Positions 10,647 to 24,723 of a stretch of DNA of 64,000 nt are shown in pieces. The stretch comes from Cladocopium goreaui (lineage: Eukaryota; Sar; Dinophyceae; Suessiales; Symbiodiniaceae), in NCBI GenBank assembly GCA_947184155.2, contig CAMXCT020006495.1, forward strand, positions 90,272-154,271. The letters run 5' to 3'. The notes under the pieces were generated by a model. It ran no database searches and had not been told where the DNA came from. It saw only the letters and a program-made list of their open reading frames with translations. A program made the translations under genes and the position numbers. How positions within the stretch are numbered: the first letter of the stretch is position 1; each line of letters opens with the position of its first letter.

Positions 10647-12496
10647 CTGTGTTCCAAATCCAACCAACCAAATTTGTCCGCCGTTGCCAAAAACAGTCAA
10701 CATGAATCCTCAATGCAGAGAGTGAAAGTGTTGGCTAGTTCATCTTGGCCCGAACCAGACGATGATGGAGAAGAGTCACCCCCATCTCCCGACTATGACG
10801 ACGAAGAGTACGAAGATGATGAACTTGCTGTCGTAGGCGGTAATTCATCCAAACTAGATGATGACCTTGTACCCGACATATCAGGCGATTTTTGGAGCTG
10901 ATGCACCCTCCGATGAGGAAGGCATACCATCTGCTGACCGGGAGGTCCAGCCTGATGAGGATGAAATACAAGATGAAGTTGTTCGTCGTGACCCAGAAAG
11001 GGATAGACGTAGGGAAAGGGGAAACGCCGCATTGAAAGCTGAAGCCAAAAGTAAGCGGCATATGTTGACTCATGTTCCCAAGAATCCATATTGTGACGTC
11101 TGTACGAAGGCCAAGATGTACAAACCACCCGGATATTCTAAAGGAGGTTCATCCATGGTTGAGGCAAAGAAGTTTGGGGACCATATCACTGATGACTATC
11201 TTATTGCCAAATCAGATCCTGAAGCCGGAATTGACGGCGACAGGGTCGCACTGGTAATTAAGGACGTTGCCACTGATTTCCGGTATGTTTATCCAGCTGG
11301 TCGCCGAGATACTTCCAATACTACCCTCGCAATGAAGCACTTCGTCCATGACTTGGAGAAAGTTGGAATCTTCTACAGTGATAATGCCCCCGAGATTGTA
11401 GCAGCTATGAGAGCTATGAAGATCAGGCATCAAATAAGTAGAGATTATATTTCCACGTCCAATGCCATTGCTGAACGCGCCGTACGATCCACGTTGGAAG
11501 GAAACCGAGCTAATTTGCTTCAAGCAGGACTGCACCACGGATACTGGCCCTATGCTGCCAGACACTGGTGCATAATGCATGACTCTGCACCGGACGGAAC
11601 TGGAAGGGACACACCATGGAAATTGAGATTTGGGACTGACTTCGAGGGGCCTCTTATCCCATTTGGATGTAAGGTGGACTACCGGACCGGACCTAGGAAG
11701 AAACCCAAGAAGCAGATGAAGTTTGAACCAACTACTGAACCGGGCGTCTTCCTAGGATACGTAATCCATCCTGGCTTCCATTGGAGGAAGGATGAGGAAG
11801 GAATTTGCAGTAGCTTCGTTAAAACAAATCAATGATGCAGATTTTGACCAATCCGTGACAGTACTGAGGGTGTTGAAGGTATCGGTCCCTGAAAACATTG
11901 AGTTTCCCTGTCGAAAACGTGCCGATGCAATCAAAGAGGGTCGTTTGAAGCCTTGCCAACTGTGTGATGACGAGGATGCGCTACCGCCGTTGGAAGAGCA
12001 AGATGCTCAGCCTGTGCGGGAGCCAGGCCCAGTCAAGAGAACCATAATGGATATCGAAGCTGGACACGCTGCACAACAATCAAGTGCTTCCGCCGTTTAT
12101 CACCAGGGATGGTTGGAGTTCTTCAAACATGTCGACCACAAAGAAGCATGGTACGAATTTGCCAATTGCAAAGTCAATGTACGGATCATCGATAACCGAT
12201 GCATCGGTTCTTCTCCTGACTTTAATGCCACTGATTTCCCATTTCGAGCAACTTGCATTAAAGATAATGACTCCTGGCATGTCCATGAAGAGAACTTAAA
12301 AATAGATCCCCCAGTCGAAGATCTTGAAAAGGACATCGAGGTTCATGAGGTGATTGTCACAATATTCTCAAAGGAACCCATCGACCTGAGGAATCGAATG
12401 GACGAGCCGATCGAAGGAGAGGTACCGGGAGATGAGGTTGAAGTAATTAATCCGATAACAGGGGAACTTGAAAGGATCCGAACAAATGACCCCTCA
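10647..12496 (+). pseudogene. Copia-1 integrase
   Basis: An acidic linker (about 10740-10870) leads to an N-terminal zinc-binding region with H-x-L-T-H and C-D-V-C near 11060-11105. The catalytic core shows the first Asp in GDHITDD (about 11180), the second in FYSDNAPE (about 11375) and the Glu in AIAERAVR (about 11470), the D,D-35-E pattern of retroviral-type integrases. The C-terminal region has PGVFLGYVIHPG, typical of Copia. Frameshifts occur near 10890 and 11800. It would insert element cDNA into the genome. The frame continues to about 12496, where the 12.2-kb transposon interrupts it. Confidence 0.85.
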
Positions 12497-12528
12497 CCCT
12501 GAGTCTCGGAAATTAGTAAAAATTACAT
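12497..12528 (+). repeat. Left terminal inverted repeat of the 12.2-kb transposon
   Basis: All 32 bases are complementary to 24690-24721 with no mismatch. Identity this complete argues that insertion was recent relative to decay of the host Copia. Three ACCTAAA-type subterminal motifs follow by 12620. Confidence 0.95.
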
Positions 12529-12899
12529 TTTTAGTGATTTACTTTTTTCGAGCAATTTACTGTAATTTTTTTTCGCGGAAAATTTACCTAAAAATGCACC
12601 TAAAAATGGACCTAAATTTTATGCATTTTTTGGTTTCGATTTGTTTTTTTTCGGTTTATTTTTAACATTTTTTTTGTTGAATAATAGTTGGATTTTAAGT
12701 TATTTTATTAGTGTATTGAAAAAAGTTTGTTTTGTTTTTTTTCGTAGAAGATGAATTAGCATAAAGAATTGGATTTGTTTATGTGTAGAGAAAAGTTTTC
12801 CTTGGTTTGTAGAAAAAAGTTACGATGATGGTATAGAAGTAAGACAGAATAGTGACACAAGTAACAAGAATGAGGACACAAGTAACATTGTTTTCATCG

Positions 12900-15476
12900 C
12901 TAGCGTTTGCAGCGAATGGCTTGCAAGTGTCTATGTTTGAGAGCAGCCACATTTCCGACTGCATAGTGTTTGTTGCCTGAAAGGCATGACTTCCACAATT
13001 GTTGAACCACTCGCATATTGCTTTCATTTTTGAAGCACCACGTTAAGTATGGGTGACAATGTTTAGCCAGCTTCAGTGTGCGCAGCACGAAGTGCAATTT
13101 GCTGGTGCAGTTGAACAATTGCAGCTCGGAAGCAGCAAAATGTTCCATCAGCATGACGTGTAGTTGAGCCATTTGACATCCTTTTTCAACTGTTTGTTCA
13201 GCAAAGGGACTTGGCATGCCAAAGTGGCCTTGTCGAGGACCATGTTCATTCAACAGAGTACCGACTTCGACATTGAGGCGAAGAAACATTTCGATTGATT
13301 GATGTTGCAACGATTCCACATTCATGAAATGTTTCCAGCACTTCCACAAAGAGAGATCGAGTCCGCGGATGTCGGATGCCCTACCCTTGAGTTTCGGGTA
13401 GCCTTTTTTTTCACAAACATGCTCAGTTTCGATAAACGTTGCCTGTACCTTTGCCGCGTTCGATCGCGTGATTGCGCACTTTTGATGAAGTCCTCGATGA
13501 CGGACAGGTTATGCAAGGGTGTATCTGTCAAGCACTCGTGCGTCAACAAATAGAAAACAGAACCATAAAAGTGTTGCAGCCAACCAAGATATAAATTGTG
13601 CATGAGATCATACGCAATGGACCAACAAGACATGCCAGGTAATTGAAATAGATCGCAGTTGCTGCGCCAGTGACTGGTCCAAGTGGATACAGTTAAGAGA
13701 GCTAGCTGCCATCCAGAATTTTCCCTGTTATCGAGCCAAGAAAGATTGCCGTGATAAGAAGCACGGCACTGCGCACAAGGTCGTGTGCGATTCGTTGAGA
13801 CTGGCAGGTCGATCCACTCACTGAAGTAATCCAGATCACCACAGAGTTGCAGGAGAACGGCTCGATAACCGCGTGCCAGGGGTTTCCCTGCTTTTTTGCC
13901 TTGCTGGCTATCTCTGTCATAGGGAAGACCGCGCCAGTCCAGTGCCGGCCAGCAGCCGTCATACATTGCCAAGCCCGTGTTTGGCTTAAGACTGGTGGGG
14001 GGGGGGGTCCGGAGGGGGGGGGGGGGGTGGTGCACGGCAAGGTGCTAAAATTTCAAAAATAGGTGCTCAAATTTAAGGAAATAGGTGTTTTTTTGAAGAA
14101 ACCGGGTCGGGATCCAGTCGGGACCCAGTCGGGACCCAGTCGGGACCCAATCGGGCACCAATTTTTGCATTTTTGGGCACCGCTTTTGGCCAGTCGGGAT
14201 CCAGTCGGGATCCAGTCGGGCACCAATTTTCGAATTTTTGGCACCACGTTTGGACCTGTCGGGAAGCAGCCAAAATCACCGAAAAACATGCAAAAACACT
14301 GCAAAAATGCTATTTTTTATGAATTTGGCTGCCTCCCGACATTGGTGCCCGACTGGATCCCGACTGGATCCCGACTGGATCCCGACTGGATCCCGACTGG
14401 ATCCCGACTGGATCCCGACTGGCCAAAAGCGGTGCCCAAAAATGCAAAAATTGGTGCCCGACTGGGTCCCGACGGGATCCTGACTGGATCCATAGATTGG
14501 CAAGAACCCACTCCCGCACCTATTTTTCCCTTCCCAGACCCACCCTTGCCCCTATTTTCCTTTTCCGCGCACCAGCCGTGCACCAATACCCCCCCCCTCC
14601 TGCACCAAAACGGTAAAAGCAGTCTTAAGCCAAACGGGGGTTCTACAAGTCATACATGCATTGGAAAGACCAGCGGAGCACACGCCAGAGCGTTTGCATC
14701 GTGCCTACAGTGCCTGTCGATGACGGAAGTGAATTTTTTTCGAAGATGGCCCAAATGTAAAAAACTATATCAGCCATTTTGGCGCCAAGCCCATTCGCCA
14801 GCATGCTCATCCAAGTGATGGATAAAACGGAGCGGCTCCAGATTTTCCCAACTCCCATCACAGGGACTTCGTCCCCATGAAGGGAAATGGGTATAAACTT
14901 TCTCTGCCAACTGTCGAAACGTTTCATGGGATGATGCATCATCCCTGGATGTGATTCCCAAGCTTGCCAAAAATCCGGTAAGCGATCAGCATTGGGGCAA
15001 ATGGTTCTTTCCCAATTAAAGTCATCCTCAGACATAGCTGCAAACCATTCATGCGGAAGTAAAATGTCAGCCTCGTGTAAACCGTCTGTGTATGGCATTG
15101 CTACCTTCACAGGCTCGGGCAAAGTGGACTGTCTTCGTAATCTGTCGTGCACAGATCGAAGGAGATTTCTTCCTTGTTCAAGACTTGCCAGTTTCTCCAG
15201 ATCCGGAAATCTTTTGCCATCTCGTGCTCCTTGAACATCTCGTTGTGCTGCCTGCGCAATTTCATGCGCCGACACTCCAGACATGATGCCTTTGGCAATC
15301 AAAAGCATGAGCACAGCATGCACAGCACTCTCCGCGGTTGCTGCTTCGTCTGCGCGGGCTAAGCGTTGCTGAAGTCCACCTACTTTTCTTTTCTTTCCAG
15401 ACTTATGAGGCTCCGCGTTCATGCGGACAGTTTCACAGACACTGTCTTGCCATGGAAATGCTTTCACGTCGCACAA
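12900..15476 (-). pseudogene. Transposase of the 12.2-kb element, split by a fold-back insert
   Basis: The frame opens at the ATG at 15476 with a basic leader and runs through FIPISLHGDEVPVMGVGK (about 14865) and LWRVLRWSFQCMYD. It is then interrupted by the 682-bp element at 13967-14648. It resumes in frame with GCWPALDWRG, a Cys-pair region ending RPCAQCRA (about 13770), and IAYDLMHNLYLGWLQH (about 13590). The D-x-M-H pattern resembles the tnp2-type EnSpm transposase core. A frameshift or intron near 13340 leads to a last part (13349-12900) with FNCTSKLHFVLR and CFKNESN. I infer it cuts and pastes the element. Three of its blocks match exons of the gene at 45.5-53.5 kb. Confidence 0.75.
13967..14648. 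mobile_element. 682-bp fold-back element inside the transposase gene
   Basis: GTCATACAT occurs at 13958-13966 and 14649-14657, an exact 9-bp target duplication. The inner ends share the inverted repeat GTTTGGCTTAAGACT at about 13979 and its complement at about 14623. Inside, GGATCCAGTCGGGACCCAGT-type units (14105-14230) face their complements (14340-14500), and long G runs (13997-14027) face C runs (14589-14600). Deleting element plus one duplication (691 bp) exactly rejoins the transposase frame. A 9-bp duplication is typical of Mutator-like elements. It encodes nothing recognisable. Confidence 0.9.
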
Positions 15477-15920
15477 GACGGTACATGCAAGTTTTTTTTA
15501 CTATTATACCTATTACTCTTGCTGTCATTTTGTGATGTGTCAGAATAACATTTATTATGAATGAACCGTCTACTCATATTCTGCTCTGGATGATTCACAT
15601 CTATTGTTTGTTGCAACGTTGACATTGCCAGCAAGATGAGCCATAAGAGCTCAATCAACAGACAAGGTAGGGCGTGCTGATCAATCTCAAATAAAAGAAT
15701 TGAACGAAAGTAAGGCCGACACAAGGAAAGCATTGCAATCTCAAACATGAGAAGTGGTGTTTCGATCCTTCCATATTATTATGAAACTCAAGTAAGGCAG
15801 ACACAAGGAATGAAATAGAAACATCGCAAGTACAACTTTCTTTCCAGCCCGCATCAGCATTGCCGCCAAAATCTTGCGAAATGTACCATCGCAAAAGATG
15901 CGCAGGGACTCATAACCTGT

Positions 15921-17392
15921 CTAGGTTCTTTTGGCACGCTTTGCGCGCTGATCAAGCTGACCCTTGATGCCAGCGATCACATCTTCCTGACTTTCACAGA
16001 TCTGTCCCTGGGTGTGCAAGAAATCATTGTATGTCTTCAAAGTCAATTTCATCCCGGAGGGCAACTCCTTGAAGGACTGCACATGAGAGATCTCCGCCTT
16101 GACCCGTCGAACCTCTTGGATGGCTGCTTTCCTGGCAGGATAACTTGCACTAAAAAAGTGATCACACGTAACGATACAAAATCAGCAAATGCAATGAAGA
16201 ACAATAGCTGTCCATCAATGCAGACGAGATTCAGCAGAGGGTACAATGGCTCGTCTTCGTTCTGCTCGATGACACCCATGTGTCTCATCGCATTCTTCTC
16301 CTGCTGATCTAAGGCCGCAAAGGCCGACTGCAATTGTTTCTGTGCGACAACCCATTCTTCCTGGGACAACGGGGACTCCACATCACAAATGGCGAGCTGG
16401 TTGGATCCACTAGCAATGCTCTGTGGACGCTTGATGCCACTTTTCCAGCATTGGGTCATCTCCGTGTACTTCTGCATCGTATCCTGGTCGCCTTCCTCTG
16501 ACATCTTGTAGCCAGTCGCAGTTTTGACGCCCTTGATCTCCGAGAAGGTGCTCTGTCTCCAACCATACTCTGTGCCATTCGGTGTCTCCACTTCCATGAA
16601 TTGCCCCTCTCGAAGACCTTGCTGGACCTGTTCTGGAGTCAAGCGGAATTTTCCGCAAAAGAGAAGCAGGGGGAGAGTCTTCAGTTGCTTCTTGCTCTTC
16701 GTATCTTGGTAGTCAGAGCGCATACTTTCGAAGATGGCCTTGTCCGTGTTGAGGATCAATCGTCCTGCGGCGGAATGATCATAGATGGCATTGATGATCG
16801 CAGTCTGACACTCTCTTTTCCCGGATCTCAACTTCGAAACACGCTCCCATTCCTTCTGAATGAAGGGAGGCAGCTCTCCATTGGCTAACATTGTCTGGAA
16901 CTTCTGGTTCTTGGTGCGGTCACGGATCTCATGGACCTCACCATCTTCAAGAACTGGATCCTCTTCGAAGTTGCCATGCTCTTCTTCGGGTTGCTCAGCA
17001 TCTTGGTCAGTGGCGTTGCTTGTCTCCCGGACAATGCCTTCTTTCCAAGAAGAAGAAGAACCTATTCCAGCAGCACCACTTTTGCCTGGGGCCGCCGCTG
17101 GCTTCTTCATGAGACCTTTGTTTCCCTTGGAAGATTTGGGCTTTGTCTCAACCTCATGACGAGCCGCAGCAGGCTTTTTCTTGATGGTTTTCATCACAGA
17201 CTTGGATTTCGCGGAAGCTTTTTTCTTACTCTCTCCTTTGCTCGATGCCTTTGCCTTTGCCTTCGGAACTTCTTTTGAACTTGGCTTTTTCAAGGGCTTT
17301 GCAGGAGAAGGTTTCTCAGACCTCCGACCGGGACTATCTGCCTGCGTACCTCGTTGTGGCGACTCCTCTACCTCCACTGCTTCCGACGCCAT
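15921..17392 (-). CDS. Lys/Ala-rich accessory protein of the transposon, two exons
   Basis: The ATG at 17392 starts about 150 residues of low-complexity Lys, Ala, Pro and Ser sequence with repeated KKPAAA, a likely nucleic-acid-binding or nuclear tail. A folded region follows with AIINAIYDHSAAGRLILNTD and LPLLLFCGKFRLTPEQVQQG. The frame then loses sense near 16235. A better continuation lies at 16149-15921 (ARKAAIQEVRRVKAEI to a TAG at 15921), after a T-rich tract and AG at 16150-16151. An intron of roughly 90 bases is likely, with an uncertain donor. The fold resembles repeated dinoflagellate proteins of unknown function. A TTACTTG motif lies about 100 bases upstream. Confidence 0.65.
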
Positions 17393-18329
17393 ATGCTCGG
17401 AAAAACAGCAACCTGCTTATTTTTTTCACTTTGATTCGAATTGGCTGGCAGGTACTTGAACAAATGCTCATCTTTGACGCAAGGAATTTGCTCAAGTAAG
17501 ACATGCGATTGCCTCCGCTATATTTCGGATATGGGAGCTACATGTAAAAATTAGTAACATAATCAATATTAACATATATATATATACACATATGTATATA
17601 TATATATAATTTGATCTATATAAGAGATATAAGATGCCATTAATTATATACATGTATATAAACTACGCCTAAATGTAAGCACTAAAATGTTTCAAAAGTA
17701 TTCCTTATCATGGAATGATATACCCATGTTCGTCACAAAAAAAAACACACAAAACCAAAAACAAAACAAAATCTGTCAAGACTTAACCTTCGAAAATTCA
17801 CTTCGAACAGAAGACTGGTTTGACGCATGTTCTTTTATTTTTTATTTTTGATGAATCCAAGAGTTGTCTACAGCTTTTGATAGGTATGACGTTTTTTTTT
17901 TACATCCAACATTTCCATTACTTGAATTGTAGATATAATAATATTATTATTTTTTTAAATAAGGCTAAGGTAATTACGTGTAATTTCCTATTTTTTTACT
18001 TGTGATCATTTTCTTTTTACAAATTTTAATATATAATAATATATTGAATATTACCTGAGGCAGTTACATGTGATTTTTTTTGTACACTTATGGTACCTTT
18101 ATTTTTTTGAATTTTGCACTGAATGGTTAAAACATAAATGATGTGATACCAGAGAATTAAAGATGCAAACATCTCTTTGCATATCAAAAATGGCAAAGTG
18201 ATACAAATTGAACTGGGTTGATTTCCTAATTTGATATATTGCCATAGAATTAAGTCAATTTGAAATTGCATCAGTTGTCAGCTTCTATCAGGGAAAATTG
18301 TACTTTTGAAAAATTAAAAAAAATATATA

Positions 18330-18815
18330 GAGTTTTTTTTCATAACAACTGGGTTGAAACAATTTAAAACCACGCATTTTTTTTTTCCAGGACAGTTTTT
18401 TTGTCTTAACCTTAAAACAAACGTTCTTAAATTACTTGTGAGATTTCAGGTTTATGTGTTTTACTTCTGTGTGCCACTTATTATTTAGTAGAAGACGTTA
18501 CTGTGACTGCCCTTGCAGTGTTAGTTCTGATGTGTGATGATTTTACTGTTTCAGAAAATATTGAAAATAGTTTCTCTTGTGAAAATATAGTGACCAAGAT
18601 TAGAATAAAAAATATACTGCAGAGAAAAAAATTGAGTAACACTGCAAGGGCAGTCATAGTAACTAATAAATGGCACAGAGAAATAAGACACAGAAATCTA
18701 AAGTCTCACAAGTAAAGTTAAAACTGCACCTTTTTTTTCAGCTTAAAAAAAAAACTGTTCTGAAAAAATAAACAGGGTTTTATATTGTTTCAATCCAGTT
18801 GTCATGAAAATAGAC
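18330..18815. repeat. Long inverted repeat, arms of about 240 bp
   Basis: TGACTGCCCTTGCAGTGTTA at about 18503 is answered by its near complement at about 18636. AACTGGGTTGAAACAAT at about 18347 is answered at about 18787. Matching continues in order across both arms, including a TTACTTG at 18432 and its complement CAAGTAA at 18709. The structure could be a nested MITE or part of the element. No target duplication was identified. Confidence 0.8.
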
Positions 18816-19044
18816 TATATAAAAAAAGTGGTTGATTCATTTTGTTTTTGTTTTTCAATGTATTTGAATTAAAAAAATATAATCTATATATATAATCTAT
18901 ATTATTTGGTTTTTTTGTTTGCATGGTATTCATCTGATTATCATTATCGTATAGTTTTATACACATTACAGAGAAAATGTTTTGAGTGCACATGTAGTTT
19001 ATATGTAATTTATATATATTTTTATGTAGTTTTTTTTAAAAAAA

Positions 19045-19180
19045 ATATATATTTCATATGTAGTTCATATGTAGTTTATATGTAGTTTATATGTAGTTTA
19101 TATGCACTTTTCAAAAGTGCATATAAACTACATATAAACTACATATAAACTGCGTATGAACTATATATAGAATTTATACA
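19045..19180. repeat. Near-perfect palindrome of ATGTAGTTTAT units
   Basis: Tandem GTAGTTTATAT units run into GCACTTTTCAAAAGTGC, centred on about 19112, and then appear as the complement ATATAAACTAC. The arms are about 50 to 65 bases, so the transcript or single strand could form a long hairpin. Confidence 0.9.
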
Positions 19181-19287
19181 ATTTTTCTTAAAAATATTAT
19201 ATTTTTTTCATTATTTATGTCAATTTTCTAATGAGGTATACCTACTTGTTGTTGGTTTTGTAATTCAATATTGTTGAGATATCAAAA

Positions 19288-19433
19288 ATGCAACTGCAAT
19301 TGTTTCCATGACAAATCTTGAGCACAAGTAAAATGATCTCAAGTAATTGAAGACTTAAAGATGCAACTGCAATTGTTTCCATGACAAATCTTGAGCACAA
19401 GTAAAATGATCTCAAGTAATTGAAGACTTCAAG
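19288..19433. repeat. 73-bp tandem duplication
   Basis: The segment beginning ATGCAACTGCAATTG at 19288 is repeated almost identically from 19361. Each copy carries two CAAGTAA motifs, so the duplication doubled the number of these sites. Confidence 0.9.
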
Positions 19434-19524
19434 ATAAAATTGATAAGGTCAAGGAATGCTGATACTCAAGTAAATTGACAAATCTCAAGTAACTTGAACT
19501 CAAGTAATTGAATATCACAAGTAA
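19325..19524 (-). promoter_or_regulatory. Cluster of eight TTACTTG motifs
   Basis: CAAGTAA on the plus strand starts at 19325, 19340, 19398, 19413, 19467, 19486, 19501 and 19518. The cluster lies just beyond the 3' end of the ORF at 19612-20598. It may serve the next gene, or act as a transposase-binding or replication site. The function is inferred from enrichment only. Confidence 0.5.
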
Positions 19525-19611
19525 AGTGATCCAACAAAAGTAAAACATGTAAGAATAACAATACGCAGCATTTCTTTTTTTCCACACTCTTGGCTCTGTA
19601 AGGTTTGACTG

Positions 19612-20598
19612 TCACATGATCTTGCGCTTCTTCTTGCATCTGTCAATCTTCTTTTTCAACTTGTCAAGGTCGTTCATCAAGTCATCTAAATCAAATTCTT
19701 CATCCTCCGAGGAGGCGTGGCTATCTCCATAATCATCTTGATGGAGATGCGACTCATCGTCCATGGACTCCTGCTTCAATTGATCAACAGCTACGTCTGA
19801 CATCTCTGCCTTCACACAAGAGGTTTCCTCCTTGAAGTTATTGTGCAACTGTTCTGCCAAATAATCATCGCCAAGGTCGTCGAAATGTGCAGGAGAGACA
19901 TAATCTTCCTCTGTGCTGCCTTCCTCTATCTCTTTCTGAGATTCAACAGCTGCAACAATTTCTGGATCACCATATGCTTCTTCTGGAATCCATTCATATT
20001 CTGCAGAGGTCTCCTGAGCATGTAACTGAGCTTCCTCAGGTGGAGGGGCTGAGGCCTTTGAGGAAGGACGTGCTTTGTTCTGTGCATCAGCCTTAGCTTT
20101 TTCACAAGCTTCTGCCAAAGCGCACTGCTCCTCCAATTGCCTTTGCGCTAAAGCAGCAAGTAAGGCTTGATTCAACATAGCATCGTTTTGCACGGGTACT
20201 TGTGGGATAGCTTGCTGAGGAACAATCTGATTCCAAGGAGAAGCTTGCTGCCACTGATGGATAGGCAAAGGGTTCATCTGCATTGAACCGAAGGACGTTC
20301 CCATGTTCTGGCTCATGCAGGCCATATCTCCTTGACCCATTGCAGGTGCTTGAGGTTGAACCCATTGAGAGTTGCCTTGAGGATGAGATTCATGCCATTG
20401 ATGCATGCTATTCGGACGATAGCCATTGGAAGGCCCTATGCCATACTGCTGCCTTCCGTCTTGTTGAGTTGGTGGCATGGTCCATTCGCTCACCTGCTGC
20501 GGCAATGAAGCCATGGGCCCCTGAGGAAGACCTTGTCCTGGACGAGGCTGTGGCGACACAGGTCGCTTCTGTGAGCAGGATGCGGTGGATCCTCCCAT
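19612..20598 (-). CDS. Gln/Pro-rich acidic protein, possible C-terminal part of an RRM gene
   Basis: The frame of 328 residues starts with a Pro, Gln, Met and Trp-rich half (about residues 1-130). An Ala-rich helix, LLAALAQRQLEEQCALAEA, follows. Then comes a strongly acidic region rich in Asp and Glu, ending in a short basic tail with KKKIDRCKKKRKIM, which looks like a nuclear localisation signal. No enzyme domain is visible. The ORF directly upstream on the same strand (20943-21212) encodes an RRM-like domain, and the intervening 340 bases may be intron, so the two may form one gene. Similar Gln-rich tails occur in RNA-processing proteins. Confidence 0.6.
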   Translation of the reverse strand: MGGSTASCSQKRPVSPQPRPGQGLPQGPMASLPQQVSEWTMPPTQQDGRQQYGIGPSNGYRPNSMHQWHESHPQGNSQWVQPQAPAMGQGDMACMSQNMGTSFGSMQMNPLPIHQWQQASPWNQIVPQQAIPQVPVQNDAMLNQALLAALAQRQLEEQCALAEACEKAKADAQNKARPSSKASAPPPEEAQLHAQETSAEYEWIPEEAYGDPEIVAAVESQKEIEEGSTEEDYVSPAHFDDLGDDYLAEQLHNNFKEETSCVKAEMSDVAVDQLKQESMDDESHLHQDDYGDSHASSEDEEFDLDDLMNDLDKLKKKIDRCKKKRKIM

Positions 20599-20942
20599 CT
20601 GCTTCTCCGATACAAATCTTCGTGTTCTACTTTGAGTGGCTTCTCACGCCTCAGCAATGAGAAGACGCAAACGGAAAGAATAAACATAGCATGGGGGGAA
20701 ACTGTCAGAATACCAGCATTGGAAAGCTAAGACATAGCAAGGCACACGAAAAGGTAACACATAATACAAACTCAGATCTAGTCACCGTGTGCACAGAGTT
20801 GGATCGTAACGCTGGTTGAGTTGCTCGACCACCCAATCCGCATCTGGAGCCTCAAGTGTGACATGTTGCAATCAGCTCAAGTAAAGCTGCGTATAAGCTA
20901 TGCGCATAATGACTCCCCAAAAGTTATCCCCAGAGAAAGCGA

Positions 20943-21212
20943 CTATCGCATCCTGGAAACATTGTCTATCTTCAGGAAGCAGCTGCAATGCTCTGGTTTC
21001 CAGTTTTGTTCATCCATTCGAACTAACTGAATCTCCTTCAATGACCTATGCACGCCAGCATAATCATACACAGCGGTCCGGATCTCATTTTTCGTCACAT
21101 CGAAGCGCAAGTTTGACACGTGCACACGAGGTAGCAAACGACCAGAGGGCCGCATGGCACAGGTAGCACGGCGCGATCGGCGATTGCCGAAGAGAAATAT
21201 GAATGCTTGCAA
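20943..21212 (-). CDS. RRM-like domain ORF of the transposon
   Basis: The frame contains LLPRVHVSNLRFDVTKNEIR, where VHVSNL fits the RNP2 strand of an RNA-recognition motif. A helix and SLKEIQLVRMD follow, then CSCFLKID in the place of RNP1 but without its aromatic residues. After a probable splice near 20960 the sequence continues with QDAIVAFSG, the expected last helix. Likely role: binding RNA or single-stranded nucleic acid. Four TTACTTG motifs (21353-21444) lie upstream. It may be the first exon of the gene ending at 19612. RRM assignment is by pattern and moderately sure. Confidence 0.6.
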   Translation of the reverse strand: MQAFIFLFGNRRSRRATCAMRPSGRLLPRVHVSNLRFDVTKNEIRTAVYDYAGVHRSLKEIQLVRMDEQNWKPEHCSCFLKIDNVSRMR

Positions 21213-21352
21213 CAGTCGAAAGTCTCTGACAATAGAAACATATTTCTATATTAATTTCTATGCTTATTTTGTCTTTGATAGTACTTGCGCCACCTTTTCT
21301 TTCACGATTCCTGGTAAAGAAAACCACAGGCATGGAATGTTGGCAATGGACA

Positions 21353-21444
21353 CAAGTAATGAAAAGTAATGCCAAGAACGGAGAGCTACAACACAAGTAA
21401 TAGGTAAAGCTCGCAAGTAACCGTTATTTCCGTATCTCAAGTAA
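21353..21444 (-). promoter_or_regulatory. Cluster of four TTACTTG motifs
   Basis: CAAGTAA on the plus strand starts at 21353, 21394, 21414 and 21438, in the 300-base gap between the ORF ending at 21518 and the RRM-like ORF starting at 21212. This position suits a promoter or trans-splicing region for the RRM-like gene. Confidence 0.5.
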
Positions 21445-21517
21445 CTAAAGGCTGCGATCCGCAAGGAATCTTTCTTTGCTTGGTTTATATCCTGCGGAAA
21501 GTGCCACAATGTTTCAG

Positions 21518-22381
21518 TCAGCTAGAATCATCTGCAAGAAGATGACGCAAAGAGGCTCGCAAAGCATCATCTGACTGCACATCAGAGATGGAGGAGGCCG
21601 AAGGAAAGGCATCAGTCTTCTCAAGGGGCACACGTCGTACAGGTGATCGACTTCTTCGTGCGACTGATGTAGAATGAGATGCTGGAGCATAGGGAATCCC
21701 AGTTGTACTATCTCCAGGCGCATCATTCGTGCGAAATGTCGCAGATAATGAAGGACGTCGTGGAACCGACGCTAAGCCCATGGCATTTGGTGCAGAAACA
21801 GCATGTGGAGTTTCCCCAGCACATAGATGCAGGACAGGTTGGCGGATAGTTGCTGCAGCTGGCAACATAGGACGCAAAGCACTTTGGTCAACAGAGACAA
21901 AGTCTGGATAGATAGGTAAATGTGAACGACAACCTCCAGATTGAGCGGAAGGAATGTTGCACCCGGATACACCTTGAGGACCGTCAGGATCTCCAAAGGT
22001 CAGTGCGGATAAACCTGGTGTTTCAGCGAATATAAGTTTTGGTGGCAGTGACACAAAGAAATAACATAAAATATGAGAATAAAATCTCTCCAAGGAGCAA
22101 GTCTTATTTCCAGGCTTACTGAGACCTGCAATCCACCGTCCGTGAAGAACACGAGCACACAGCTTTGCCTGTTCCTCGGTGTTGAACATCAAGACCAGCT
22201 GACAGAGAAAGTCCGGACCCCATTTGCGAATGAGATTCTCGAACTGCTCCTTCCACCCTTCAGCTCTATCTAGGCGAATCGATTGCAAGCCATCTGCCAC
22301 CTGCAAGGCCTGCAAAGTGTTTCTCACTTCATCTGGCATCACTTGGTAGTTGACATTTCGAACTTCCAGCTTATACACCAT
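21518..22381 (-). CDS. Second RRM-like protein with an SR-type tail
   Basis: The ATG at 22381 is preferred because MVYKLEVRNVNYQVMPDEVR starts the domain directly; the frame is open further upstream. The first 100 residues fit an RNA-recognition motif: KLEVRNVNY as RNP2, a helix, QSIRLDR, then FLCQLVLMFNTEEQAKLCARVLHG as the RNP1 strand and last helix. A low-complexity Pro and Ser region follows, containing RRSRSPVRR, an Arg-Ser motif of splicing factors, and the protein ends in an acidic tail. A short intron near 22050 is possible. It is probably a distant paralogue of the RRM-like ORF at 20943. Three TTACTTG motifs lie just upstream. Confidence 0.65.
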   Translation of the reverse strand: MVYKLEVRNVNYQVMPDEVRNTLQALQVADGLQSIRLDRAEGWKEQFENLIRKWGPDFLCQLVLMFNTEEQAKLCARVLHGRWIAGLSKPGNKTCSLERFYSHILCYFFVSLPPKLIFAETPGLSALTFGDPDGPQGVSGCNIPSAQSGGCRSHLPIYPDFVSVDQSALRPMLPAAATIRQPVLHLCAGETPHAVSAPNAMGLASVPRRPSLSATFRTNDAPGDSTTGIPYAPASHSTSVARRSRSPVRRVPLEKTDAFPSASSISDVQSDDALRASLRHLLADDSS

Positions 22382-22553
22382 TGCACGGAAGTAAGAAAAA
22401 AAAGGCACAGAGTTGAAGCATTTTCCTAGTCTCATGAGGTGACTATATGCAAAACAAGAGGTTGCTGCTTGCATTTTTTTGATGTGTAGCATCATGTTCC
22501 CGCTTGATCCAGTGATACATATGTGGATGGCACAACGTCAATCCAAGGAATCA

Positions 22554-22624
22554 CAAGTAAGATGTTGAAGGAGCACAAGTAACTATACCAAAGTAAAGAA
22601 GACGCAAAGGCAGTGAGCAAGTAA
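22554..22624 (-). promoter_or_regulatory. Cluster of three TTACTTG motifs
   Basis: CAAGTAA on the plus strand starts at 22554, 22576 and 22618, in the gap between the ORF ending at 22830 and the second RRM-like ORF starting at 22381. Two related AAAGTAA sequences lie nearby. Confidence 0.5.
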
Positions 22625-22829
22625 GCGAAGCAGCTAAGTGAATACTTTTACTTCTCAAGGTCGTGATCAACACGAAATCCTCAATGAATGTAAATGCGGA
22701 TGTTCAAGCTAGAAACATCCAACGCCCCGAAGCAAACACATGTCGAGCTCATTACGCTCCTCGCTACCTTGAAACAGAGATATGATAATTAAATTATGAA
22801 CAGTACAATTGTATAAAGTAAACAGTACA

Positions 22830-24158
22830 TCAATCGACATTAGGAGCTTCCAAGGAGAGCCGGACCTGCTCAGCAAAAGGGTTGGTCTTCGACCCACTAG
22901 GAATGAATCGCCGCTTTATCAGCTCGGACAAGGATAAATCCTTCAGAAGCTGCGCCCGGCGCAGCGATGTCCCCCATGCCTTCATTGCGGCTCGCTTGCT
23001 TAACCCACCATGGTTGACTTGCTCCTGCACGAACCGATCTCTTTGAGCGTTCATCTCTCCGGGCTTGTACTGAAGAGACTCCAAAGGAACAATCTCAGCA
23101 TTCTCCTTCTTGGTCGACTTGGCAATGCAACCCTTGACAGGCTTCTTCTTTGGAGAACCTTTGGCTACCTTGCCTTTCTTTGGATTCTTTTTTGATGTCT
23201 TCTTGTCACCCTTGGATGACTTCTTGCTCTGTTTTGGTTTCTGCTCTTTCAAGGCTGCCTTTGGAGTATGCTGCATCGCTAATGCAAGCACATTGGTGGC
23301 AGACTTCATAGGCTCAAAGCCAGCAGCTCCTGCAGGAATGACATTGTCTTGACCGAGAAGCTTGCCAAAAATGGCAGGCAAGGGATTCATGAGCCTTGAT
23401 CCACCTGACGGTGTCGCAGACACCTTGTTGAGCTTGGATCGAGCAACCTTTTGCTCCTGCTTCTCCACAGGAACCAACGCTGTCACCCCACAGCTAGCAG
23501 GCATGTAAGTTTTTGGTTCACAACCTTCGAATGCCGACATACAGATGTCAGCACCTGACTTCTCGTCGTCCTCGTCAAAGGACTCACCAGCAAGCAACTG
23601 TGGAGGGAGAATGACACGATCCAACAAGGCAGACAACTTACACTGCTCAACCTTACTCAGCATCTTGTACGTTCTCTTGGACGCGATGTGAGAACACTTC
23701 AACTGACGCAGCATGGACAAAAGCACTCGCAAAGTCACATCGACCTTGTCCATCATATCCAAGGCCGTCGCATGCTTTGTCTCGGGGAAGAAAACATCGT
23801 GGTTCTGCTGCATGGCTTTCAACGCGGCCACCACCTTCTTGCTATGGAGTTTCGTATTTGGGCAAATCTCAAGTAAATCATAAAGTAAAGATGCCACCTT
23901 CATGAGCCACTCTGGTTCTGGTTTGCTATGCCAGCCGTAAGACAAAGGTCCTGACGGCGGAGGGCAAATCAGAGCCCAAATCTGCTTCTCCTGTTTCAAG
24001 TGCACATGCCCTGTCAAAACCTCTTGGATGGCTGCAACAGAAATCGTTGCATCGGCCACCAGCCTGAAACGACCACTTTGCTTGGAAGACTTCTCCTCCG
24101 CTGCTGCTGCCAACTTGGATTTCACCACATCATCCAACTTCGACATTGGATACGCCAC
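22830..24158 (-). CDS. Lys-rich protein of unknown function with a conserved C-terminus
   Basis: An uninterrupted frame of 442 residues. The N-terminal half is globular and helical, with LLYDLLEICPNTKLHSKKVV and VDVTLRVLLSMLRQLK. A long Lys, Ser and Gly-rich linker follows (about residues 300-345, with repeated KKxxKG). The last 75 residues read WGTSLRRAQLLKDLSLSELI and then RRFIPSG, a block I associate with highly repeated dinoflagellate proteins. No catalytic motif is seen. It is the first gene of the minus-strand series and the most intact one. Four TTACTTG motifs lie 80 to 200 bases upstream and one lies inside the frame at 23870. Confidence 0.65.
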   Translation of the reverse strand: MAYPMSKLDDVVKSKLAAAAEEKSSKQSGRFRLVADATISVAAIQEVLTGHVHLKQEKQIWALICPPPSGPLSYGWHSKPEPEWLMKVASLLYDLLEICPNTKLHSKKVVAALKAMQQNHDVFFPETKHATALDMMDKVDVTLRVLLSMLRQLKCSHIASKRTYKMLSKVEQCKLSALLDRVILPPQLLAGESFDEDDEKSGADICMSAFEGCEPKTYMPASCGVTALVPVEKQEQKVARSKLNKVSATPSGGSRLMNPLPAIFGKLLGQDNVIPAGAAGFEPMKSATNVLALAMQHTPKAALKEQKPKQSKKSSKGDKKTSKKNPKKGKVAKGSPKKKPVKGCIAKSTKKENAEIVPLESLQYKPGEMNAQRDRFVQEQVNHGGLSKRAAMKAWGTSLRRAQLLKDLSLSELIKRRFIPSGSKTNPFAEQVRLSLEAPNVD

Positions 24159-24235
24159 AAAAGCCTCACTCTAGACCAACCTTTCCACTAACTACAGCCA
24201 AATGCTCGATGAGAATAACCACATTCACTGGGACG

Positions 24236-24359
24236 CAAGTAAGAGGCGGCATCCTAACAAAGGGTCTCGCACAAGTAATTAATATTCCTTCGACACAAGT
24301 AAGAGCCAAACAAAGAAAGATCAAACATTCACACAGAATTTCATTCCACCCTCAAGTAA
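24236..24359 (-). promoter_or_regulatory. Cluster of four TTACTTG motifs
   Basis: CAAGTAA on the plus strand starts at 24236, 24272, 24296 and 24353, directly upstream of the 442-residue ORF and about 330 to 450 bases from the right end of the transposon. Confidence 0.5.
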
Positions 24360-24689
24360 CAACAACCAAAAATAACCAAAGTAAGCTCTTCTTTAATCTG
24401 ATTTCCTAAATCTACAACAATAACATTGACACAAATCTCAACACATCCCATCAAATTTCATCATCAAAAGAATCCCCTAGCGTTACAAAATATATAGTCA
24501 AATAACATTTTTTAACAAAATAAAACAAAAAACATAAATCCCAAAAAAGTACTTGCAACCTAAATGTGCACCTAAATTTCAACCTAAAATTGCACCTAAA
24601 TTTAGGTGCAAATTTAGGTGACCAAAATTTAGGTGAAAATTTACGTAAATTTTTCGACCTAAATCGAAAAAAATACCTAAATTTTTGCG

Positions 24690-24721
24690 ATGTAATTTTT
24701 ACTAATTTCCGAGACTCAGGG
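24690..24721 (-). repeat. Right terminal inverted repeat of the 12.2-kb transposon
   Basis: Perfect complement of 12497-12528. Upstream, ACCTAAA or its complement recurs about every 12 bp at 24558, 24570, 24582, 24594, 24601, 24613 and 24629, and once more at 24657. Regular subterminal arrays of this kind are transposase-binding sites in EnSpm elements. Confidence 0.95.
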
Positions 24722-24723
24722 CA

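Follow-up and report, generated by a model that had tools for sequence, protein, structure and literature searches.

A large CMCT-clade DNA transposon in Cladocopium goreaui with a conserved five-gene set that includes two RRM-like genes

DNA transposons move as DNA, so RNA-handling proteins in them are unexpected, and a large transposon in Cladocopium goreaui has four conserved genes next to that of its transposase, with RNA-binding-like and splicing-factor-like proteins among their products. The transposon lies in the 64,000-nucleotide stretch analyzed here (the window), on a contig labelled C5854. An initial annotation described an EnSpm-like transposase accompanied by five extra open reading frames (ORFs), two of them RRM-like, and proposed that the extra proteins belong to the element and act on its RNA. 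Comparison with other copies shows that five genes, in the order ORF1, RRM1/SR-like, RRM2-Gln, LYS447, and transposase on one strand, move together, stay in one order even between deeply diverged elements, and evolve under purifying selection. On balance, we lean towards the whole account, in which this is a five-gene CMCT transposon whose RRM1 and RRM2-Gln proteins act on its own transcript.

The element is bounded by terminal inverted repeats (TIRs) that are perfect over 32 nt, as initially described. The first 24 nt of the TIR have no other match in the window at ≤3 mismatches and none in 100 shuffles, and a chance TIR was ruled out by this shuffle control. Subterminal ACCTAAA arrays were reported for both ends, and the motif occurs 12 times in the element compared to a shuffle mean of 1.15 and a maximum of 5 (60 shuffles). 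The insertion into a Copia-like element was likewise read correctly: when the transposon and one CA are excised, the flanks form a single open Copia-like frame of 467 aa. A viral contig collection was scanned for ORF1 and for the TIR, with no match.

The six ORFs named in the initial annotation (237–447 aa) are present and every one is on the minus strand; the sole plus-strand frame of comparable size (251 aa, 14063–14818) lies largely within a nested insertion in the transposase. They make up five genes rather than six because the Gln-rich ORF, taken at first for a separate acidic protein, joins the RRM-like piece at 21155–20786 as exons of one gene in C3363, a diverged relative of the element. 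There, with GT-AG and GC-AG introns removed, the RRM2 exons and the Gln-rich frame form a single reading frame, and the window gene has matching exon borders with GT-AG introns assigned by homology. The Gln part is imperfect in both copies, with one stop in C3363 and a 1-nt frame discrepancy near 20570 in the window. RRM1 contains an in-frame insert, probably an intron; the window ORF and P0001 read through it, and P0002 and P0003 lack it. Pfam, PDB, and Rfam searches with ORF1, LYS447, and RRM1 gave no credible name, and PDB profile searches with the transposase and RRM2 gave nothing either.

Copies sharing the ends were sought across the genome (all genome-wide searches used the 1.166-Gb assembly). 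The 32-mer end (≤3 mismatches) occurs 35 times, with 0 occurrences in a reversed control, and these represent 21 sites including the window, all of which were inspected at least partly. All 15 copies with both ends readable have a 2-bp target site duplication (TSD) that varies in sequence; they represent 13 independent sites, as two pairs share flanks. Twelve of the 21 sites are derivatives of 1.8–1.95 kb without intact genes, one of them truncated where its contig stops; what they retain is chiefly the two ends and a stretch from the center. Insertions in duplicated DNA with shared flanks are found at C3331/C5602, C2050/C2903/C11, and C5164/C1949, and copy counts therefore overstate transposition events. 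The second of these is one long insertion with no match to the element's proteins.

An independent copy, C2519 (16,268 bp, TSD AG), has DNA identities of 97.6%–99.4% to the window in its five large blocks. All ORFs are present, with protein pieces mostly 96%–99.5% identical, a transposase without the window's nested insertion, and a damaged ORF1 (about 160 bp missing and a last part that matches at only 81%). Its left TIR is interrupted by an insert of about 4.9 kb (L011 201–5166), and a short run of TIR bases is repeated at the junction. In another copy, C2129, the right end is present together with the first half, which has diverged (identities of 76% for ORF1, 76% for RRM1, and 93% for RRM2), and no second half was found within the 30 kb examined.

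The relative C3363 is complete, is about 11.6 kb in length, and was found through a genome-wide RRM1 search. Its ends begin CCCTGAGTCTCG and its TSD is CA; it was missed by the 32-mer end search because the remainder of its TIR differs. Identities to the window are 57% for ORF1, 66% and 40% for the two RRM1 exons, 58% for RRM2, 27% for the Gln part, 46% for LYS447, and 61%–71% for the transposase, and the genes are identical in order and strand. Between these two elements, the proportion of synonymous differences (pS) is 0.70–0.90, near saturation, and that of nonsynonymous differences (pN) is 0.13–0.43. Codons were paired by protein alignment, a choice that tends to lower pN. The resulting pN/pS values are 0.17–0.25 in transposase pieces, 0.27 and 0.52 in the two RRM1 exons, 0.32 in RRM2, 0.42 in ORF1, 0.31–0.40 in LYS447, and 0.60 in the Gln part, and all ten bootstrap intervals are below 1. 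When ORF1 is compared to C2129, pN/pS is 0.20 (0.10–0.36) by nucleotide alignment and 0.55 (0.42–0.67) when the alignment crosses frame breaks.

Genome-wide, RRM1 was identified at six loci (seven matches). Three are inside elements with both ends (window, C2519, and C3363) and one is beside a matching end (C2129), which links the extra ORFs to these ends as proposed. At the other two, C956 and C298, ORF1 is adjacent and a transposase lies further on, on the same strand and in that order; ORF1 is adjacent at all six. Together with C2519 and C3363, these loci indicate that the gene set is old, mobile, and selected. Two independent copies of the whole set and a diverged complete one, with order kept under purifying selection, uphold the proposal that the extra proteins belong to the element. 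Coordinates are collected in Table 1.

Table 1. Features of the transposon in window coordinates
Feature	Position	Strand	Description
Complete DNA transposon	12497–24721	genes on (−)	12,225 bp
Left TSD copy	12495–12496		CA; 2-bp target site duplication
Right TSD copy	24722–24723		CA; 2-bp target site duplication
Left TIR	12497–12528	(+)	32 nt, 100% complementary to right
Right TIR	24690–24721	(−)	32 nt, 100%
Left subterminal ACCTAAA array	12586–12616		
Right subterminal ACCTAAA array	24558–24681		both orientations
ORF1	22830–24146	(−)	438 aa; Lys-rich C-terminus; fold without a name
RRM1/SR-like gene	21518–22381	(−)	N-terminal RRM-like layout, RSRSP motif, conserved C-terminal motif
RRM2-Gln gene	19612–21155	(−)	RRM-like domain, then Gln-rich and acidic tail
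RRM2-Gln exons	21155–20961, 20850–20786, 20649–19612	(−)	by homology
LYS447 gene	15921–17392	(−)	Lys-rich N-terminus; upstream neighbor of the transposase
LYS447 exons (two)	about 17392–16220 and 16133–15921	(−)	by homology
CMCT transposase	12900–15422	(−)	RAG1/Transib-type fold; broken by nested insertion and −1 frame break at A8G
Nested foldback/MITE-like insertion in transposase	13967–14649		9-bp direct repeat ATGTATGAC; not in C2519
TTACTTG motif	12858–24359	(−)	consensus TTACTTGNG; 27 sense copies, 25 outside coding exons
Internal palindrome	19046–19178		core GTTTATATGCACTTTT / AAAAGTGCATATAAAC; between Gln and LYS447 genes

Parts of the gene set extend to a wider family. A transposase search (88 of 723 candidates scored) yielded 93 matches that merged to at least 71 loci, and an ORF1 search (96 of 198 candidates scored) yielded 95 matches that merged to at least 81 loci. 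At 34 of the 71 transposase loci listed, ORF1 lies no more than 25 kb upstream in the same orientation, compared to 0.06 expected by chance, with a distance of 5.6–8.6 kb in 29 of the 34 pairs; one further pair has another arrangement. At this sensitivity, 37 transposase and 47 ORF1 loci are unpaired. LYS447-like sequence was identified by tblastn just upstream of the transposase in seven of eight loci, the query's own included, although four of the seven matches are weak (E 8e-5 to 3e-4). The eighth, C956, had no LYS447 tblastn match, though a similar-looking ORF is present. A protein from Effrenium voratum (P0059) contains both LYS447 and transposase domains in one prediction, and named transposase homologues come from the dinoflagellates Polarella, Symbiodinium, and Effrenium. 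From these comparisons, ORF1, LYS447, and the transposase look like core genes of the wider family. The two extra proteins first noted as Lys-rich are indeed Lys-rich and carried by the element, but they appear to be core to the family rather than cargo.

The transposase has a DDE triad with C(2)C and H(3–4)H between the second D and the E (54 homologues aligned) and matches a RAG1/Transib-type fold, although Foldseek TM-scores to RAG1 of only 0.32–0.40 by query length count against that match. The element is a large cut-and-paste DNA transposon with a transposase of the CMCT clade (EnSpm-Mirage-Chapaev-Transib/RAG1). The EnSpm-like label is better replaced by CMCT clade with a RAG1/Transib fold, and the CACTA label was rejected, as the ends lack a CACTA/CAC core. 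A comparison of 21 members to Pfam gave seven weak matches, none to a transposase family. En/Spm of maize encodes TnpA and TnpD. Like En/Spm, the element is large and has subterminal repeats, a transposase with at least one partner protein, and deletion derivatives; unlike En/Spm, it has five separate genes, a 2-bp TSD, an internal palindrome, and a motif around its genes. Transib and RAG1-RAG2 share the transposase fold, but the TSD of Transib is 5 bp, and the 2-bp TSD here does not fit Transib. The ORF1 proteins of LINEs can carry RRM domains and are thus comparable to the RRM-like proteins as products of a mobile element. LINEs are retrotransposons and need an RNA intermediate, whereas it is not obvious what RNA binding would contribute to the transposition reaction of a DNA transposon. 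The sole PDB match of RRM1 is LINE-1-like and not significant (E 0.54).

In its published definition, the CMCT clade includes EnSpm/CACTA, Mirage, Chapaev, Transib, Plavaka, ESTA, and Lanisha (PMC12730594). The element resembles these in its DDE transposase with C(2)C and H(3–4)H, its RAG1/Transib fold, and its short TSD, which at 2 bp in 15 of 15 copies and in C3363 is within the 2–5 bp of the clade. It differs in having four further genes, two of them RRM/SR-like, and in its termini, which read CCCTGAG..CTCAGGG instead of the 5′-CA..TG-3′ of most members. Nor do the ends fit Plavaka, for which the termini are given as TGT..ACA or CATCA..TGATG (PMC12730594). The same source describes TET/JBP-carrying fungal DNA transposons, which are CMCT elements with conserved extra genes argued to aid escape from silencing (PMC12730594). 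The extra proteins here are RRM/SR-like or unnamed, unlike the DNA demethylation enzyme of those elements. As the initial annotation proposed, the gene set is unusual for this class of transposon.

Two further features of the transposase were observed. The nested insertion is 0.68 kb, and at 14106–14491 it is a foldback of 11-bp GTCGGGATCCA-type repeats with 105-nt arms that are 93% complementary. At an A8G run (A AAA AAG; 13399–13412 on the minus strand), the window, C2519, and the diverged C3363 all have a −1 break, and in C5164 and C1949 the frame is kept. A programmed frameshift or repeated homopolymer decay is possible.

RRM2 has an RRM layout. Its window protein matches Pfam RRM_1 over positions 2–62 of 70 with an E value of 0.014 and 15.7 bits compared to a cut-off of 20.7, and hhalign against typed RRMs gives a score of 17.6 over 80 columns (P = 0.0022) with a probability of only 5.2%, compared to 0.0%–0.2% in 15 column-shuffled controls. 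The RRM-like layout of RRM1 was seen by eye. RRM1 relatives have RS-rich tails (14 RS/SR dipeptides in 147 aa in C298 and nine in 165 aa in C956), and the database relatives P0108 and P0109 also end in such tails; the window RRM1 has a short RSRSP only. An SR comparison is reasonable for the RRM1 family, and the window RRM1 is a candidate SR-like protein. Of the two RRM-like ORFs initially proposed, RRM2 is weakly supported as an RRM and RRM1, without profile support, is unproven.

Two cis features are new here: an internal palindrome and a TTACTTGNG motif that surrounds the genes and lies mostly on their sense strand. TTACTTG occurs 30 times in the element (27 gene-sense and three antisense), compared to a mean of 1.55 and a maximum of 4 in 60 shuffles; C3363 has 32 copies, of which 26 are sense. 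Sense copies lie before, between, and just after genes, and the first is 11–84 nt past the transposase stop in all six placeable loci (two near-identical; a seventh, masked at the stop, falls outside this count). In all 17 copies examined, those without genes among them, the best hairpin is the palindrome around TGCACTTTT/AAAAGTGCA (the window scan covered 18901–19300 only), whose core reads TGCAG in C2050 and C2903. Because gene-less derivatives keep both, the palindrome and the ends are probably cis sites.

The motif shows further patterns. At C956 (L043) and C298 (L044), TTACTTG runs at a spacing of 26 bp or its multiples around ORF1 and RRM1, with sense totals of 14 and 10. In both the window element and C3363, every antisense copy falls in the spacer that separates the Gln gene from the LYS447 gene (three of three at 17900–18450 in the window and six of six at L045 7984–8635 in C3363), after the palindrome. 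An antisense transcript or a sixth gene in this spacer is conceivable.

As judged from its fold, the transposase together with the end structure would move the element by cut and paste. By comparison with RAG1 and En/Spm, it would pair and cut the ends, perhaps via the palindrome, and a DNA-binding ORF1 or LYS447 protein would help it. RRM1 and RRM2-Gln would bind the element's intron-containing and perhaps polycistronic transcript, possibly at UUACUUGNG, and would thereby promote its export and its splicing, trans-splicing, or 3′ processing, allowing production of all five proteins. An RNA-processing role for the extra proteins is the best inference from the sequences. A broader proposal, tentative and rather unlikely, is that a whole dinoflagellate cut-and-paste superfamily encodes an SR/RRM kit that would recognize a UUACUUGNG tag flanking its genes and drive splicing, trans-splicing, or 3′-end formation of polycistronic transcripts made from its elements.

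Several results weigh against these readings. C5164, duplicated in C1949, has a terminus that reads CCTTGAG and contains LYS447 and transposase pieces; neither ORF1 nor RRM1 was detected in it, so not every long copy holds the full gene set. The expectation that full copies keep the genes in order holds for C2519 (apart from its damaged ORF1) and for C3363, and it fails here. The opposite expectation, that copies with these ends carry only the transposase, fails for the window and C2519, with five genes each, and is approached by C5164/C1949, with LYS447 and transposase only. At C316 (L052), four sense and nine antisense TTACTTG copies were found, the antisense ones upstream of the transposase, and the TTACTTGNG motif is present around transposases with no demonstrated RRM genes as well. 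The motif thus need not be an RNA signal or an RRM target, and the C316 and C5164 results weigh slightly against an RNA kit throughout the superfamily. The Pfam match of RRM2 lies under the curated cut-off, the C3363 RRM2 protein has no match to Pfam RRM_1, and a PDB profile search with RRM2 returned no RRM among its matches. RRM1 has no credible Pfam or PDB match and no hhalign support, its AF2 model is poor and uninformative (pLDDT 53.5, four sequences), and its exon 2 shows no sign of constraint in the younger comparison to C2129 (pN/pS 0.91, 0.50–1.72).

The main rival to a transcript-level reading is a DNA-level role for the motif. The extra proteins would act on DNA or chromatin, with ORF1 and LYS447 (perhaps also the RRM-like proteins) binding TTACTTGNG, the arrays, and the palindrome, and the outcome would be transcription activation, an unsilenced element, or transpososome assembly. 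TnpA plays such a role for En/Spm. ORF1 and LYS447 are Lys-rich and widespread, motif clusters lie 96–213 bp upstream of ORF1 with no earlier gene before them and again after the transposase, antisense copies exist (nine at C316), and the palindrome is retained in gene-less derivatives, which need only cis DNA sites. However, most elements have a strand bias, the motif lies around genes rather than near the ends, and RS-rich tails and an RRM-like domain are features of RNA proteins. We regard this role as a real possibility, if an unlikely one. It is rather unlikely that TTACTTGNG is a host transcript-processing signal of many genes, which would be silent on element-encoded RNA proteins. The motif surrounds transposase genes of several lineages, and the comparison DNA took in no host genes, but the other DNA retrieved, 112 kb in all, has only 14 copies of TTACTTG (1.25 per 10 kb), though this DNA is mostly repeats and includes element flanks and part of a gene-less copy (C11).

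A third alternative is that RRM1 and RRM2-Gln do not bind RNA and their beta-alpha folds are protein-protein scaffolds of the transposition complex. The lack of a Pfam match for RRM1 and the sub-threshold RRM2 match, with no RRM found in PDB, would fit such scaffolds, but RRM2 aligns over the whole domain to typed RRMs better than the column-shuffled controls and RRM1 relatives have RS-rich tails, and we consider this improbable. Large plant transposons do capture genes, but passive carriage of captured host genes by one copy is hardly credible here and is refuted for the set as a whole by the single order of five genes, their constraint in independent, deeply diverged copies, and the adjacency of ORF1 at every RRM1 locus found.

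A literature search, with most subscription journals outside it, found neither a DNA transposon with RRM/SR proteins nor this element, which is weak evidence of novelty. The family extends the kin of the V(D)J recombinase by a large lineage with a RAG1/Transib-fold transposase, of which 21 members compared to Pfam gave no credible match. In dinoflagellates, most genes are expressed through spliced-leader trans-splicing, and promoters and poly(A) signals are poorly defined. A conserved motif together with element-encoded RNA-binding candidates makes a small, testable system in dinoflagellate expression. If true, the superfamily RNA kit would make a DNA transposon self-sufficient in gene expression within a trans-splicing host. 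An RRM/SR-like pair kept for so long in a DNA element raises the question of whether transposons supply their own expression factors, and it suggests that certain DNA transposons may come equipped with RNA-handling proteins of their own.

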